From contig CAMAVI010000015.1 of NCBI GenBank assembly GCA_945861625.1, forward strand, positions 1 through 58,528: DNA of 58,528 nucleotides. Reading direction: 5' to 3'. Below the pieces are notes generated by a model that made no database searches, was not told where the DNA came from, and worked only from the letters and a program-made list of their open reading frames with translations. This DNA is from Candidatus Sulfopaludibacter sp. SbA3 (GTDB lineage: Bacteria > Acidobacteriota > Terriglobia > Bryobacterales > Bryobacteraceae). Positions 36,136-49,228 of this stretch are shown piece by piece; position 1 is the first letter of the stretch, and each line of letters begins with the position of its first letter. A program made the translations under genes and the position numbers.

Positions 36136-36222
36136 CCTTTGCGGACTAGCGGGCCAACGCGCCAGACCACCCGTCCAAAAGTGCCGTGCTAAAGTGGTGA
36201 TTTCGCTTTTAGGATAAGCCGC

Positions 36223-37662
36223 GTGCAGATTTTTCTCCAAGGAAAGCTTCTCGGGATCGACGAATTCCTGCTTGCCCCCGCGGGTGCCGGTCACGACCAG
36301 GCGTTCACGGGGCGCTCCCACTGGGCCAGCCTTTTGAGCGAAATCCTGCCCAGAGCGCTGCTGGGAGAATTGGGGCTGGCCAAGATCCTGCTGGGGTCGA
36401 GCGGCGGCGGCCAGTTCCTGGTGGTTCTGCCTGAGGAGTCCCGCGCCGGCGCGGATGCGTTTCTAAGATCGGCGGCCCAGGAGATCGGCTCGTTGAGCGG
36501 CAACATGGTGAAGCTCGTATGGAGCTCCACCGAGAACCTGGGCGATTGGAGCGATGTCCGCCGCCGCCTGCATGAGCAGATGAGTTTGCTGCGTGGCACG
36601 CCAGCGGCCGGATTTGCGGATGAAGCGCCGCTTGCCGGCGCCGGGGAATATTTTGCGCACCAGTTAGGCTGGAAATTGCGCGATGCCCAGGAAGTGGGTT
36701 GGTCGCCGGAAACGCCGGGACGAATTTTGATGGGAGCCGGGAAGCATCGCTGGAGTCTGGCTGGGACGACTGAGTCCATTCCTTTCGCTCGCCATGCCGC
36801 CCCCAACGAAGATGGTTCCGAGCCCGCTTCCACGGGCGAGTTGGCAGCGCGCGCCGCGGGACTGAATACCTGGGGCGTGTTGCGTGGCGACGTCGACAAC
36901 TTCGGTATCCGTATCCGCCGCGCGCAAACCATTGAGGAGCACATCCGGTTATCTGTGATGTACAAGCAGTTCTTCGCCGGTGAACTGGAAGTGCTGTGCT
37001 CCATGCCGGAGTTCTGGCGCAAGGTGACGGTGATTTATTCCGGCGGCGACGATTTCGCCGTGTACGGCGCTTGGGACGCTCTCCTCGGGCTGGCTCGCGA
37101 GATGGAACGCCTGTTCCGCCGCTTCGTCGAGACGAATTTGACTGAGTTCGCCGGACCCGAAGCGAAGACGATCACCATGGCGCTTTCGCTGGCTCCCGCC
37201 GAGGACGCCTCCGTCGCCGCTGTTTTTGAGGAAGCCGGGCGCCGTCTGGAAGCCGCCAAGTCCTCCGACAAAGACTGTGTCTGGCTGTTGGGGCGGACCC
37301 TGGAATGGAAGCAATTCGCCGAAGCGGCCGGACTCAGGGACCAGCTTCTGCGCATGGTGGCCGATTTCGGATGCTCTCCGCAGTATTTGCGGGACCTGTG
37401 CGGAATTTACCGGGAATCGCAGTCGCGGATGTCCAAGCGGCAAGCGCGCAAGTCGGGGGGCGAACGGCCGTGGCGCTACCACCGGCGCATCCGGCGGATT
37501 CTTTCGGCGTCGCGGGAAGGTTCCCGCAGGGGCGGTGGAGACTATCAGAAGGCGCGCACCGCGCTGATCGCGGAGTTGATCGGCAGGAGCGCGATCACGG
37601 TAAAGTTGCGGCCCGCGGGCCGCGTGGCGCTAGAATGGGCCAGACTATCGGCCGAAGCGTAA
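36223..37662 (+). CDS. csm1: Type III-A CRISPR Cas10/Csm1, HD-less
   Basis: A 479-residue Cas10-family protein, far shorter than the usual 750-850. The large subunit of the Csm complex normally senses target RNA, cuts DNA through an HD domain and makes cyclic oligoadenylate through its palm domain. Here the protein begins near palm 1 (GSSGGGQFLVVLP, about 58-70), and the HD domain and zinc-binding cysteines are missing. The second palm is intact: RGDVDNFG (221-228) and YSGGDDFAVYG with GGDD at 274-277. A helical D4-like C-terminal region follows, ending in a basic segment. GTG 36223 is the start; a stop lies just upstream. Cyclase activity may be retained, DNase activity is unlikely. Confidence 0.9.
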   Translation: MQIFLQGKLLGIDEFLLAPAGAGHDQAFTGRSHWASLLSEILPRALLGELGLAKILLGSSGGGQFLVVLPEESRAGADAFLRSAAQEIGSLSGNMVKLVWSSTENLGDWSDVRRRLHEQMSLLRGTPAAGFADEAPLAGAGEYFAHQLGWKLRDAQEVGWSPETPGRILMGAGKHRWSLAGTTESIPFARHAAPNEDGSEPASTGELAARAAGLNTWGVLRGDVDNFGIRIRRAQTIEEHIRLSVMYKQFFAGELEVLCSMPEFWRKVTVIYSGGDDFAVYGAWDALLGLAREMERLFRRFVETNLTEFAGPEAKTITMALSLAPAEDASVAAVFEEAGRRLEAAKSSDKDCVWLLGRTLEWKQFAEAAGLRDQLLRMVADFGCSPQYLRDLCGIYRESQSRMSKRQARKSGGERPWRYHRRIRRILSASREGSRRGGGDYQKARTALIAELIGRSAITVKLRPAGRVALEWARLSAEA

Positions 37663-37674
37663 AGGATTACTGGT

Positions 37675-38424
37675 ATGGATGACGTTCAACCCGAAGTGAC
37701 ACCTGAATCAAAAACCGAAGCGACACCCCAAGTGACGCCTGAAGCGCCTGCGCCAGAGGCTCCAGCAGAAGGCTCGCTGATGGCGGCGGCCGCCGTGCCC
37801 GAGATCGTAAAGATCGAGGCGCCCAAGCGCGAGCCCCGTCCGCAAGGGCAAAAGCCGCAGGGCCAGAAGCCGGAAGGCCAGAAGCGCGAAGACCGTCCAC
37901 CGCGTCCAGACAATCGGGGCGGCGAGAAGCGTGAAGGCCGCGGCGGTGGGCCTCCAGGGGATCGTCCTCATGGTGATCGCCCGCAAGGAGACCGCAGGCC
38001 CGGCGGCGGCGATAGAGGAGAACGCGGAGAACGTGGCGACCGCCGTGAAGGGCGTCCCGGCGGCGGCCGTCCGTTTGAAATGTTCACGGAGATCGATATC
38101 GAAAAACTCATCTCCGACAGCCTGTACCTGGATAACCAGGCGCACGCCGTCGTGGCGCGCATGCGCGATATGGATTTGGGCACCAAGAGCCAGTTGCGGC
38201 GCTTGTATAACGCGGTGCGGCGCGCGGTGCGCGCTCCCGAAACCGAAAAGCAGCATCAGTTTGTGATGTTGCGCGCGCGGCTGGCTTACACCATCGCGCG
38301 GCATTCGCTGCGCAGCCTGGATGCGCTGGAGCGGCTTCTGTTGCAGGTGACCCGCCGCAACGATGCGCACGGATACGAGCGGTTCAAAGATCTGTTTGAA
38401 GCCATCGTTGCTTATAACGAATAG
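37675..38424 (+). CDS. csm2: Csm2 with a long disordered N-terminal extension
   Basis: The last 116 residues (about 134-249, FEMFTEIDIEKLI... to IVAYNE) form an all-alpha domain of the size and pattern of Csm2, the small subunit that lines the belly of the type III-A complex. Residues 1-133 are low-complexity: Glu/Pro/Ala/Thr first, then Lys/Gln/Gly and Arg/Gly/Asp/Pro-rich repeats (GDRPHGDRPQGDRRPGGG and similar). Canonical Csm2 lacks this. AAGGA sits eight bases before ATG 37675, so the extension is supported as coding. It follows csm1 by 12 bases. The family call relies on domain pattern plus order. Confidence 0.8.
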   Translation: MDDVQPEVTPESKTEATPQVTPEAPAPEAPAEGSLMAAAAVPEIVKIEAPKREPRPQGQKPQGQKPEGQKREDRPPRPDNRGGEKREGRGGGPPGDRPHGDRPQGDRRPGGGDRGERGERGDRREGRPGGGRPFEMFTEIDIEKLISDSLYLDNQAHAVVARMRDMDLGTKSQLRRLYNAVRRAVRAPETEKQHQFVMLRARLAYTIARHSLRSLDALERLLLQVTRRNDAHGYERFKDLFEAIVAYNE

Positions 38425-38453
38425 GGCTTACAACGAGTAAAGGCGGAAATTGC

Positions 38454-39287
38454 ATGAGCACACACACGGCTCAAACCCAGCTACAACTGGTCGGCAAGTT
38501 GATCTTGTCGGGCGACCTGCACTGCGAAACCGGTCTGCATATCGGCGCAGGCAAGGGGTCGCTGGAAATTGGCGGCGCCGATAACCCGGTGGTCAAAGAC
38601 GCTTTCGGATTACCTTACGTTCCGGGCAGTTCGCTGCGCGGGCGCATCCGCTCGCTGCTGGAGCACGCGCTCGGATTGACGGCGCCGGGCGAACTGGTCT
38701 ATCTCTCCAAGCGCAAGGGGCAGGAAGTGCGCATTCACCAGAGTGACCGTCCGGATGACGAAATCTGTCTGCTGTTCGGCCGCAATCCGGGGCGCATGGA
38801 TCGCGTGCAAGGTGAGGCTCTCGACACCCGCCAGGCGACGCCCGCGCGGCTCACGGTGTATGATGCGCCGCTGGATGCGTCCAGCATTACGGCGCAGATG
38901 CGGGAGAACCTGGACGATGAAATCACCGAGGTGAAGAGCGAGAACGCCATCGATCGCATTACCTCGCAGGCCAATCCTCGTACGCTCGAACGCGTACCGG
39001 CGGGCGCGCGCTTCCGCGTACGCATGGTGCTCGACGTCCTTTGCGAAGAGGATAAGGCGTTGGCGGCACGGCTGATCGAAGGCTTACGGCTGCTGGAAGA
39101 CGACGCCCTCGGTGGTGGCGGCTCGCGCGGCAGCGGGCGCGTGCGGCTCGGTAATCTGACGCTCGCGTGGCGTAACCGTGCGTTTTACTCTGCGGGAAGT
39201 GCGGAAGCTGAACTGGCCTCCGGCGCCGATCTGGCGGCCGTGCAAAGCCTGGTGAACGATTCCGCATTCGGCGAGAAGCTTAGCTAG
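38454..39287 (+). CDS. csm3: Type III-A RAMP protein Csm3 (target-RNA cleaving backbone)
   Basis: A 277-residue RAMP protein of the Csm3/Cas7 group, which polymerises along crRNA and cuts target RNA every six bases. The N-terminal GLHIGAGKGSLEIGG and ADNPVVKDAFGLPYVPGSSLRGRIRSLLE are hallmark. The aspartate equivalent to the cleavage residue (Asp33 of the Streptococcus enzyme) is Asp43, within GGADNPV. A glycine-rich loop near residue 221 (LGGGGSRGSGRV) is the RAMP signature. AAGGCGG precedes ATG 38454. It is slightly longer than the usual 220 residues. Cleavage activity is predicted as intact. Confidence 0.92.
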   Translation: MSTHTAQTQLQLVGKLILSGDLHCETGLHIGAGKGSLEIGGADNPVVKDAFGLPYVPGSSLRGRIRSLLEHALGLTAPGELVYLSKRKGQEVRIHQSDRPDDEICLLFGRNPGRMDRVQGEALDTRQATPARLTVYDAPLDASSITAQMRENLDDEITEVKSENAIDRITSQANPRTLERVPAGARFRVRMVLDVLCEEDKALAARLIEGLRLLEDDALGGGGSRGSGRVRLGNLTLAWRNRAFYSAGSAEAELASGADLAAVQSLVNDSAFGEKLS

Positions 39288-39290
39288 ATC

Positions 39291-40304
39291 ATGCCGGCAG
39301 TTCTCATACGCCTAAGGCCCACGGGTCCGTGGCGCGTTGGCCCGGATTCGGGCGACCGCGACCGCGTGGACCGCGTTTATCATAGCGACGCGCTGTACTC
39401 AGCCGTGTGCGCCGCGATGGCGCGCCTAGGCGCACTCGAAGAGTGGCTCGACGCGACCGCGAGGAGCCCTCAACCGGCGGTCCGCTTCAGTTCGTGCTTC
39501 CCGTTCCACCAGGACACGGTGTATGTCGTGCCGCCTCGTCATATCTGGCCTCCCGTTGCTTCCTCGAAAGTTCGCTGGAAGGGCGCGCGTTTCGTTCCGC
39601 TAAAAGTGGTTGAGACGTTGCTCGCGGGAAAGCCGCTGAGCGAAGACGCCTGGGTGGTGGATGGCGAGAGCGAATGCCTGATGCCGTCGTCAGCGCCTCC
39701 CGGTTCCACGTTATTCCGCGCCTCCGTGCGCTCCAGCGCGGCGATGGATCGCGCCGGTGAAGGCGTGGCTCCGCACTCGGTGGCTTGCGTTGAATTTGCC
39801 GCGGGCTGCGGCGTCTGGTTCGTGGCTGCTTTTGCCGATGACGCCGCGCAAGAAGTATGGGGGGAACGGGTAAGGGCGGCGATCCGGCTGCTCGCCGATT
39901 CCGGATTTGGCGGAGAGCGTTCACGCGGCTGGGGACGCGCGGAGATGCCCGCCTTTACCGATGGCGCGCTGCCCGATTTGCTGATGCGTGGCAGCGGCGA
40001 GCCGCAGGGCGAGACCGCCTACTGGATGCTGTCGCTGTTTCATGCCTCTGAAGCGGATGGCGTCGACTGGGAGCGCGGCAATTACGCATTGGCCACGCGG
40101 AGCGGCCGCATCGAGAGTGCGGCGGGCTGGGGCGAACAGAAAAAGAGTACGCGCATGGTGGCCGAGGGTTCCGTGGTCGTCGCCACGGCGGAACCGCAAG
40201 GCTCGGCAAGCGATGTCGCTCCGGAAGGTTTTCCGCATCCCGTGTATCGCGCGGGCTTTGCGCTCTCCTTGCGCGTTCCATTGAAGGTGCCAGTCGCATC
40301 ATGA
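39291..40304 (+). CDS. csm4: Type III-A RAMP protein Csm4
   Basis: A 337-residue RAMP protein. Csm4 caps the 5' handle end of crRNA and contacts Cas10. It begins AVLIRLRPTGPWRVGPDSGDRDRVDRVYHSDALYSAVCAAM, the first RAMP strand and helix of the Csm4 group. The glycine-rich loop GFGGERSRGWGRAEM (about 206-220) is the usual G-rich motif, and a C-terminal half of about 120 residues completes the second RAMP. It starts with ATG 39291, three bases after csm3, with no clear ribosome site, so coupling is likely. Its last four bases overlap csm5 (ATGA). Confidence 0.86.
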   Translation: MPAVLIRLRPTGPWRVGPDSGDRDRVDRVYHSDALYSAVCAAMARLGALEEWLDATARSPQPAVRFSSCFPFHQDTVYVVPPRHIWPPVASSKVRWKGARFVPLKVVETLLAGKPLSEDAWVVDGESECLMPSSAPPGSTLFRASVRSSAAMDRAGEGVAPHSVACVEFAAGCGVWFVAAFADDAAQEVWGERVRAAIRLLADSGFGGERSRGWGRAEMPAFTDGALPDLLMRGSGEPQGETAYWMLSLFHASEADGVDWERGNYALATRSGRIESAAGWGEQKKSTRMVAEGSVVVATAEPQGSASDVAPEGFPHPVYRAGFALSLRVPLKVPVAS

Positions 40305-41401
40305 AGTACCGTGTCACGTGTCTGACTCCGACGCTGGTGGGCGATGGCCAGAAGCTGTCGCCGATCGACTACATGGTCTGGAAAGATCACGTCAACGTGC
40401 TGGATCAGCGCCGCATCTTCCGGTTGCTCGCCAAAGGTCCGCGCCTGGAAGGGTATCTCGCGCAACTCAAGAAGGCCGAGAAGCTGGACTTCGCGTCGTG
40501 GGGTGGCTTTGCGCAGAACTTCGCCGGGCGGCGGCTACCTTTTGAGCACGCGAGTTCCGTGGCTTTCTTTGAACGGGCCCAGGCGGCGGATCTGTTCATT
40601 CCCACGTTCGCGACCAATGCCAGCGGGCCGTATTTGCCGGCTACGGCGCTCAAGGGAGCGCTGCGCACTGGGTCCGTGTTCGACCGCTGGAACGAGAAAA
40701 CGGTTCACGATCTGGCCGAGCGCGTGGAAGACCGCGTGCCGCGCTACTTCGCGAGCAAAGCCGAGGACGCCGCACTCGGCGGTTCCGGCGCGAGCCGCAT
40801 GCGCCGCGTCTCGGTAGCGGATTCGGGCGTGGTCACCTATTCCGGCATGAAAGTGTACCTGGTGCGCACGTCGACGCTGGTCGCGCGCGGAGGCGACAAG
40901 CTTGAACTCGGCTGGAAATCGCAGCGTGGTTCGGTGGACGCCAAACGCGTGGACGACAGCGCGCTTCTGTTTGCCGAGATGGCTTCCCCCGGCACGGCAT
41001 TCGACGGCGGGTGGCATGAGCGCTCCGAGGGTGATCGAGTCAAATTATTCCAGGCTTCCAATCGTTACGCCGAAGGCCAACTCACGCGGCACAAGGACTA
41101 CGCTCAGCGGACTGGGATGACCAGGCTCCTAACCAAGATTGAACAACTGGAAGCGCGCCTGTCTGAAGTGCGGGCGAGCCGCCACGCCTGCCTGCTGTCG
41201 ATTGGCTGGGGCGGGGGATTGCTGGGCAAATCGGCCTATCTGAATACCGAAGACGACGCCTACCGCAAGATTCTGCGCAGCATGCCGCTCTACCAGCGCG
41301 CCATCCAGACCGGCATGCCGTTCCCGAAAACCCGCCGCGTGATTTTTGAGGGCAACCAACCCGCGAGCCTTCCCGGATGGGTGATGCTCGAAGTGGGGTG
41401 A
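40301..41401 (+). CDS. csm5: Type III-A RAMP protein Csm5
   Basis: A 366-residue RAMP protein that caps the 3' end of the crRNA in type III-A complexes. It opens MKYRVTCLTPTLVGDGQKLSPIDYMVWKD, the Csm5 opening pattern 'cltPv.iG.g..l.p..yi'. PYLPATALKGALRTG (about 109-123) is the shared 'iPgssl.gaiR' motif. GWGGGLLGKSAYL (about 302-314) is the glycine-rich loop. It ends with PKTRRVIFEGNQPASLPGWVMLE, close to Csm5's C-terminal 'PkTr.l....p.GW'. It starts by overlapping csm4, and closes the operon. Confidence 0.88.
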   Translation: MKYRVTCLTPTLVGDGQKLSPIDYMVWKDHVNVLDQRRIFRLLAKGPRLEGYLAQLKKAEKLDFASWGGFAQNFAGRRLPFEHASSVAFFERAQAADLFIPTFATNASGPYLPATALKGALRTGSVFDRWNEKTVHDLAERVEDRVPRYFASKAEDAALGGSGASRMRRVSVADSGVVTYSGMKVYLVRTSTLVARGGDKLELGWKSQRGSVDAKRVDDSALLFAEMASPGTAFDGGWHERSEGDRVKLFQASNRYAEGQLTRHKDYAQRTGMTRLLTKIEQLEARLSEVRASRHACLLSIGWGGGLLGKSAYLNTEDDAYRKILRSMPLYQRAIQTGMPFPKTRRVIFEGNQPASLPGWVMLEVG

Positions 41402-48355: not shown

Positions 48356-49228
48356 ATGTACAATGCGTTCTTTGGTTTTACCGAGAGCCCGTTCAATCTA
48401 AGCCCCGATCCCACGTTCTTTTTCCGCAGCGATCAGCACGAGGAGGCGCTGGCCAATCTCATTTATGGAGTGCAGGCCCGTAAGGGTTTCATAGTCCTGG
48501 CCGGCGAAGTGGGCACCGGCAAGACCACCATGCTCGAATGTCTGCGCGATCACCTGGAAGCACAGTATATCGAGTTTGCCTTTATTTTCAATTCACGAAT
48601 CAGCACAGAGCAGTTCTTCGAGATGATCGCCTATGATCTGAACCTGCCCTGTGAGCGGACGTCCAAGACCGAAGTACTGTTCGCGCTGAATCAGCTATTG
48701 GTGGAACAAGCCCAGCAGGGGCGCACCGTGGTGCTGATTGTGGATGAAGCGCATAACCTGGAATGGGAAGTGCTCGAAGAGATCCGGTTGCTGGGGAACC
48801 TGGAGAACCGGAATGGCAAGCTGTTGCAGATCATCCTGGCCGGGCAGCCGGAACTGGACCGCAAACTGGACGCGCCCAACCTGCGCCAGCTGAAGCAGCG
48901 AATTGTCCTGCGCTGCAATTTAAGGCCGTTCACGCTGCGGGATTCGGTGGATTATATTGAGTCGCGGCTGGAAAAGGCCGGCATGCTGGAGCAGACCGTC
49001 TTTCCGGAGGAGCTTCTGGCGGAAATCCATCTGCGCTCCAGTGGGACGCCGCGCCTGATCAATGCCGTTTGCGACAACCTGCTGCTCACCGCGTTCGCCT
49101 GCGAGCAGAAAGTTTGCACCATGGAAATGTTGGACGAGGTCTGCACTGACCTGCGCCTGGAGTGGCCCGGCAGCCGCCGTTCGCGCGGGCGCCTTGCCGA
49201 CGAATCCTTTGAGCGGGCCCCCTACTAA
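48356..49228 (+). CDS. ExeA/GspA-type AAA ATPase
   Basis: A 290-residue AAA ATPase. It begins MYNAFFGFTESPFNLSPDPTFFF, the opening of ExeA-like general-secretion ATPases. The Walker A motif is GEVGTGKTTM (about 50-59), the Walker B motif VLIVDEAH (about 125-132), and the sensor region LLQIILAGQPEL and arginine-containing RQLKQRIVLRC follow. The C-terminal lid ends in a basic tail. These ATPases support outer-membrane secretin assembly or exopolysaccharide export. It is 35 bases before the first signal peptidase gene on the same strand. Confidence 0.87.
   Translation: MYNAFFGFTESPFNLSPDPTFFFRSDQHEEALANLIYGVQARKGFIVLAGEVGTGKTTMLECLRDHLEAQYIEFAFIFNSRISTEQFFEMIAYDLNLPCERTSKTEVLFALNQLLVEQAQQGRTVVLIVDEAHNLEWEVLEEIRLLGNLENRNGKLLQIILAGQPELDRKLDAPNLRQLKQRIVLRCNLRPFTLRDSVDYIESRLEKAGMLEQTVFPEELLAEIHLRSSGTPRLINAVCDNLLLTAFACEQKVCTMEMLDEVCTDLRLEWPGSRRSRGRLADESFERAPY

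Follow-up and report, generated by a model that had tools for sequence, protein, structure and literature searches.

A near-universal csm operon with an HD-less Cas10 in the family Bryobacteraceae

Gene content of the csm locus

The window analyzed here is a 58,528-nucleotide stretch of DNA from Candidatus Sulfopaludibacter sp. SbA3 (Acidobacteriota, family Bryobacteraceae). It harbors the five genes csm1 to csm5, which encode the subunits of a type III-A CRISPR effector complex (Table 1). That nearly all of a bacterial family has this operon is its most unusual property, and one that lay beyond the view of the sequence-only reading, an earlier annotation made from the letters of the window. 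The window is one complete contig (C15 of 174) of a genome of 3.82 Mb that is 94% complete, and therefore anything outside the window lies on other contigs.

The genes for Csm2, Csm3, Csm4, and Csm5 lie together in one operon, as is characteristic of type III-A. The gene coordinates give gaps of 12, 29, and 3 bases followed by a 4-base overlap, which agrees with the tight arrangement described earlier. The GC content is 63.8% in the operon and 60.8% across the window; together with the family-wide conservation described below, this similarity supports the earlier suggestion of long residence. PADLOC was applied to 47 window proteins (6 of the 50 predicted open reading frames were left out) and found no CRISPR-type match beyond the five csm genes. 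As neither this search nor an array detector found an array or adaptation genes in the window, the locus itself is indeed without both. No family reached its gathering score in an Rfam scan of the window. A conserved RNA 5' of csm1 was considered and discarded, as the alignment of 20 same-genus or close sequences shares a promoter-like motif only.

Csm1 matches PF22335 and TIGR02578, has the two palm domains of Cas10/Csm1, and scores 164 bits against the NCBIfam Csm1 model (cut-off 170). In the AF2 model, residues 1-479 align to canonical Csm1 (of the Foldseek and VIA rows, those for Cas10 were used), such that the protein equals canonical Csm1 minus about 248 N-terminal residues, the HD domain included, and starts at the equivalent of residue 249. 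The HD nuclease, which is common but not universal in type III-A systems, is thus missing, as the sequence-only reading had stated. That reading was also right about the absence of zinc-binding cysteines (Csm1 contains no CxxC motif), the retention of GGDD, and the intact Asp43 of Csm3, which is the expected RNA-cleaving site by Csm3 biochemistry. A sequencing error or local frameshift that hides an HD domain was rejected as an explanation because the same short Csm1 recurs across the family and the open frames 5' of the csm1 start are short in its relatives (median 8 amino acids, aa; maximum 135 aa; 75 measurable of 80 related loci). The HD domain is given as present in 65% of III-A loci in the consulted part of PMC11229360, and its loss by itself is ordinary.

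Table 1. Positions of the csm genes and associated features in the window.
Feature	Position	Strand	Remark
csm1-csm5 operon	36223-41401	+	Pfam, NCBIfam, and PADLOC matches for all five genes
Promoter-like motif GTGnTAmAGTG..TTTCGC just 5' of csm1	36186..36206	+	Common to most of 20 aligned same-genus or close sequences
csm1 (cas10), 479 aa, HD-less	36223..37662	+	Its model matches E. italicus Csm1 over residues 249-753
GGDD of Csm1 palm 2, residues 274-277	37042..37053	+	
csm2 (cas11), 249 aa	37675..38424	+	
R/G/P-rich N-terminal tail of Csm2, residues 1-138	37675..38088	+	
csm3 (cas7), 277 aa	38454..39287	+	
Csm3 Asp43 codon, expected RNA-cleaving residue	38580..38582	+	
csm4 (cas5), 337 aa	39291..40304	+	
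csm5 (cas7), 366 aa	40301..41401	+	
ExeA-like AAA ATPase	48356..49228	+	About 7 kb 3' of csm5 here

Distribution and conservation of the operon

CRISPR systems are usually patchy in their distribution and horizontally moved, and Cas1 and CRISPR arrays, as judged by the proxies defined below, are patchy within Bryobacteraceae. The HD-less Csm1 was found in 186 of 200 genomes of the family by a Csm1 search, in 135 of the 140 with completeness of 90% or more and contamination of 5% or less, and in 70 of 76 genera. A search for Csm3 covered the 14 Csm1-negative genomes and 12 with weak Csm1 matches, and found it in 1 and in all 12, respectively. Both proteins are absent from 13 of the 200 genomes, including every sampled member of genus g217 (five) and of g273 (two). 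Among 396 genomes sampled across the phylum there are only 23 Csm1 matches, namely the genome of the window, two of the same genus, and 20 others, which have at most 35% identity and mostly normal-sized Cas10 frames. A scan of named genomes gave 176 relatives, the best 80 of which are from Bryobacterales or other Acidobacteria with the exception of two odd labels. Two csm contigs filed as Bordetella parapertussis and Acidimicrobiia (L155 and L163) are Bryobacteraceae-like by csm identity; the Csm1 of L155 is identical to that of the family genome G187 (L070). The 11 best non-self Csm1 matches coincide exactly with the 11 further genomes sampled in the genus of the window, which is what vertical inheritance predicts, and these sequence comparisons suggest that the operon has apparently been inherited vertically.

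The 20 family loci and 80 named-genome loci compared share nine identical Csm1 proteins, and the non-redundant set comprises 92 loci; duplicates remain in the counts for upstream frames, ratios of nonsynonymous to synonymous substitution rates (dN/dS), Csm2 tails, and distant Csm2 proteins. All five genes are present in 74 of the 92 loci, and the other 18 end at most 2,978 nucleotides past csm1. Compared with the window, median identities are 84% (aligned part of Csm2), 77% (Csm3), and 55-57% (Csm1, Csm4, and Csm5). Asp43 of Csm3 is conserved in 90 of 90 sequences. The GGDD motif of Csm1 is found in 82 of 92 and near variants (GGDE, GGND, AGDD, GEDD, and GSDD) in nine more. In locus L089 (G490:C51), EGGS replaces GGDD in an otherwise intact operon, and judged by its motif this Csm1 is possibly a natural cyclase-dead member. 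None of the Csm1 matches listed has an internal stop. Among the four most similar pairs of sequences for each of the five genes, dN/dS is 0-0.18; when all pairs with dS below 1.2 are included, the medians rise to 0.10-0.38 and are less reliable due to saturation and repeated use of sequences. These values, which were computed over all loci together and pool genomes with and without Cas1, point to purifying selection on the csm genes.

The N-terminal tail of Csm2 is a further feature of the family. In 94 sequences that match the motif of the conserved core (sequences without the motif were left out), the tail that precedes this core spans 35-165 residues (median 67), with a median arginine plus glycine (R+G) content of 41.5% and at least 30% in 77 of the 94. 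By comparison, the 11 Csm2 frames from distant operons of the phylum are all 135-159 aa and have short N-termini only. RNA is often bound by R/G-rich tails, and the Csm2 tail may do the same.

Cas1, CRISPR arrays, and CARF genes

No match to Cas1 (PF01867) was found in the genome of the window at its completeness of 94%, in line with the earlier description of the operon as adaptation-less. Judged by its predicted subunits, the operon belongs to the type III-A effectors; measured as a complete CRISPR-Cas system, it falls short on Cas1. Across the family, 109 of 200 genomes have Cas1.

Two patterns, both limited to TTGARAC-type repeats, served as proxies for arrays, namely three spaced copies of TTGARAC and the longer core CCCCN6AAGGGGNTTGARAC with one mismatch. 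They match 45 and 49 of the 200 genomes, respectively; the backwards control patterns match 4 and 9 genomes, once each, so that single matches are near chance. Neither proxy matches anywhere in the genome of the window, a negative result that holds for TTGARAC-type repeats. In addition, a direct scan of 1.25 Mb (33% of this genome) for three exact 14-mers 45-100 nucleotides apart detected no array and two short tandem repeats. The array search thus covers TTGARAC-type repeats across the 94%-complete assembly and other repeats in the third that was scanned directly.

The array detector, run over 223 loci (2.42 Mb), returned 18 matches. Those judged real lie beside Cas1 in L096 and L101 (by the detector line alone) and next to the cas6 of G402, a genome that lacks csm (L122 and L142, the same place; part of L142 was read). 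On the matches judged, an array beside csm or beside the cas6 of a csm-bearing genome was dropped as a candidate. Matches in L075, L086, L087, and L052 and one of four in L088 are tandem repeats, which, except for that of L052, lie in what look like small peptide genes. The remaining candidate matches lie in L073, L164, L170, L177, and L216, with three more in L088.

No protein among the 47 analyzed by PADLOC matched CARF, which bears out the earlier statement on csm6/CARF genes within the window. Beyond the window, a Csx1_CARF search found no match in the 200 family genomes, a negative result that covers this one model, which gives no match in genome G422 although PADLOC finds CARF proteins there.

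An unlinked Cas6

The genome of the window has one PF10040 gene, on contig C60, which encodes a 259-aa protein (E 2.4e-13) that PADLOC identifies as Cas6 (E 3.8e-41); an NCBIfam search of this protein gave no match. The Cas6 expected of a complete type III-A system is thus present and unlinked to csm. The sequence-only reading, confined to the window, had no view of this Cas6. The gene is divergent from a uvrB-like gene, and after it come genes for an alpha/beta hydrolase and a yggS-like protein (neighbors named by eye from sequence). A run of 15-bp units lies inside the yggS-like frame of the same genome (G000:C60, L123:12457-12590).

Of the 200 family genomes, 170 have a PF10040 match, a count that takes in Cas6 copies belonging to other CRISPR systems. 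In a tree of 27 Cas6 proteins, seven group together with support of 1.000, apart from 19 of array-free 20-kb regions and the G402 Cas6; three of the seven (G431, G468, and G492) are less than 11 kb from Cas1. This group falls inside a weakly resolved region, and the tree does not support a single clade for the unlinked Cas6. Strict vertical co-inheritance of Cas6 with Csm was also considered, and the comparison of Cas6 and Csm1 distances given below does not support it. In genus g217, which lacks csm, two arrays with 37-nucleotide repeats are adjacent to a cas6 that resembles the unlinked ones (L142, G402:C13:64500-84400), at a locus that also encodes two large RAMP proteins (701 and 1221 aa) with III-D and gRAMP-like PADLOC matches.

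A proposed Csm complex uncoupled from adaptation

We favor, with a probability of about 0.55, the reading that the operon encodes a fixed Csm ribonucleoprotein (RNP) that would be uncoupled from CRISPR adaptation and retained for a role that needs no spacer acquisition. Its basis in the genomes is that effector genes and Cas6 lie at two separate loci and that the operon occurs in genomes with and without a match to Cas1 or an array, together with the loss of the HD nuclease, the retention of Asp43, of all five subunits, and in most members of the Cas10 cyclase motif, and the signs of purifying selection. Neither Cas1 (p=0.26) nor the array proxies (p=0.23) show a statistical association with csm. 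Among 187 csm-positive genomes, 68 have neither Cas1 nor an array proxy, and 57 of these 68 have Cas6. One of the same genus as the window, the 100%-complete G289, has csm and Cas6 and neither Cas1 nor a repeat-pattern match. Cas6 itself co-occurs with csm (165 of 187 csm-positive and 5 of 13 csm-negative genomes; p=8e-5).

According to this reading, the unlinked Cas6 would trim short RNAs that are loaded in trans onto the complex, and the loaded complex would base-pair with transcripts and cut them through Csm3. It would not cut DNA, and cyclic oligoadenylate would be at most an optional output. The guides would most likely be Cas6-processed RNAs, derived from arrays of other systems where such arrays are present and from host transcripts otherwise. 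A more specific and more tentative form of the proposal, which we consider possible and short of probable, is that the complex has become a housekeeping RNP of Bryobacteraceae, in which a host-RNA-guided Csm with its R/G-rich Csm2 tail and unlinked Cas6 would cleave or regulate transcripts and CRISPR memory would no longer be the main input.

Several observations weigh against an adaptation-free complex. Among six csm-positive genomes in at most four contigs (G403, G492, G493, G497, G537, and G538), all except G538 have Cas1, and G538 has one match to the spaced TTGARAC pattern; the missing arrays and Cas1 in other assemblies may thus be partly artifacts. Most genomes consist of multiple contigs and vary in completeness, such that arrays are easily lost and the co-occurrence counts are confounded. 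No guide RNA was found, and 22 of the 187 csm-positive genomes lack a PF10040 match. Cas6 tracks the array proxies, which occur in 65 of 170 Cas6-positive and 4 of 30 Cas6-negative genomes (p=0.007). Moreover, Cas6 identity is 48% within the genus and 46% between genera, compared with 76% and 54% for Csm1, and the distances of the two proteins are weakly correlated (15 genomes; Mantel r=0.35; 62 of 5,000 permutations). Such fast evolution and weak tracking of Csm1 argue against one fixed RNA substrate and favor a Cas6 that follows repeats or is exchanged.

Alternative explanations

The first alternative is ordinary type III-A immunity with dispersed parts, in which CRISPR RNAs (crRNAs) come from arrays elsewhere, often of another type, through the unlinked Cas6, and in which the assembly misses the array and cas1. 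We regard this as a serious alternative that falls somewhat below an even chance. It is in keeping with the Cas1 genes of 109 genomes, with the repeat core AAGGGGnTTGARAC (at most one mismatch) in 49, with the link between Cas6 and array proxies, and with the rapid diversification of Cas6, as expected if it follows repeats. A search for Cas10 covered 28 of the 49 array-positive genomes, and 13 of these show just one palm-2 match; two of the 13 lack csm, and in the other 11 the single Cas10 appears to be the core Csm1 (nine by place; G444 and G556 by frame length only). The arrays of those 11 genomes could have the core complex as their sole type III user. However, the independence of csm from Cas1 and arrays, the 68 csm-positive genomes with neither, and the complete genome G289 speak against it, and the array proxies over-count if anything, given that a backwards control matches nine genomes once each.

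The array owners inspected are mostly other systems. The one Cas4-Cas1 array locus that was scanned (G403) is type I-G with its own Cas5-Cas6 fusion, and nine other loci share its repeat form, which also speaks against dispersed type III-A immunity; Cas1 frames of about 590 aa had been taken for fusions of reverse transcriptase (RT) and Cas1, and this one turned out to be Cas4-Cas1. RT-Cas1 stands beside CARF genes in G422 and Cmr genes in G431, and the array owner of the csm-less G402 is a type III-D/E-like locus. RT-Cas1/array modules were rejected as the missing part of the system on account of these neighbors and of G452, in which the module shares a 13-kb contig with another Cas10. In G580, the contig with RT-Cas1 also encodes a CorA-like protein, and the core Cas10 is the sole PF22335 match of the genome, which makes array sharing with the core complex possible there. 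The RT-Cas1 locus of G422 (L232, G422:C40:302000-318000) combines an array with genes for two CARF proteins, of which one includes a SIR2-like part, and a second Cas10 lies on the same contig. The only PF10040 match of that genome lies about 294 kb from this locus on the same contig, an arrangement in keeping with immunity from dispersed parts. The identity of the bound RNA separates the two leading readings, an adaptation-free complex and immunity with dispersed parts.

An operon that acts mainly as a sensor, with target RNA triggering Cas10 to produce cyclic oligoadenylate for an unlinked effector, is improbable. The wide conservation of GGDD and its near variants is in its favor, but L089 keeps the operon despite EGGS, and Csx1_CARF matches none of the 200 family genomes, although that model misses the G422 CARF proteins. 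Finally, a decaying CRISPR remnant kept by chance would account for the missing HD domain, linked array, and cas1, and is very improbable because it is already contradicted by the low dN/dS of all five genes and the non-redundant conservation counts, as well as by the Csm1 frames free of stops among the matches listed, the nearby contig ends of the loci lacking some genes, and the invariant Asp43.

Neighboring genes

In 30 of the 63 non-redundant loci that have enough flank, the gene immediately 3' of csm5 encodes an ExeA-like ATPase. This adjacency marks an old shared position and is not taken for a functional link, and the ATPase was discarded as a functional partner because shared synteny is all that the adjacency indicates. 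Small genes built of tandem repeats, which encode peptides like PPDPWGDG and possibly a signal peptide, are found 3' of the ExeA-like gene in three genera (L086:14560-15020, L087:3713-4230, L088:3876-4290, and L075:3827-4260). In the window, weak non-CRISPR PADLOC matches occur in four of the 47 proteins; the gene at 1858-2562 has a weak match to a phospholipase effector (E 1.9e-8, with no single stretch passing) and perhaps encodes a general patatin-like protein.

Relation to known systems and significance

Compared with the type III-A Csm complexes of S. epidermidis, L. lactis, E. italicus, T. onnurineus, and others, the system described here differs in that Csm1 lacks the counterpart of residues 1-248, that array, cas1, and csm6 are missing from the locus, that cas6 is unlinked, that the R/G-rich Csm2 tail is long, and that the operon is fixed across the family. 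Type IV-B systems are array-less Cas7/Cas11 filaments without Cas10, and the presence of Cas10/Csm1 places the operon outside that type. The type IV-B Csf complex, a Csm-like filament said in the consulted part of PMC7937560 to assemble on heterogeneous RNA rather than crRNA, is the nearest parallel to a Csm-like RNP that works without crRNA; the operon differs from it in having Cas10, Csm4, and Csm5, and its genome has Cas6. Most of the loci of types III-B, C, E, and F treated in PMC12669027 lack arrays according to its consulted passages; these are other subtypes than the III-A operon described here, the strings 'acidobact' and 'solibacter' are absent from its main text, and the consulted passages mention no III-A lineage fixed in a bacterial family. 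The part of PMC11245096 consulted counts CRISPRs in Acidobacteriota without naming a fixed Csm there, and no description of a fixed, family-wide array-less Csm in Bryobacteraceae was found among the open-licence PMC papers searched, as judged from their listings.

If the favored reading is true, a fixed, adaptation-independent class 1 effector of five subunits would provide a natural test of whether an RNA-guided complex can be taken over for a task other than memory. Organisms suitable for sequencing the bound RNAs exist, given the six csm-positive family genomes in at most four contigs. If the guides are crRNAs borrowed from other systems, the family would clearly exemplify an effector that is permanent while its memories are interchangeable. 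As nearly all sampled Bryobacteraceae keep the operon, although many show no sign of CRISPR memory, it may have a job that is independent of recording infections.

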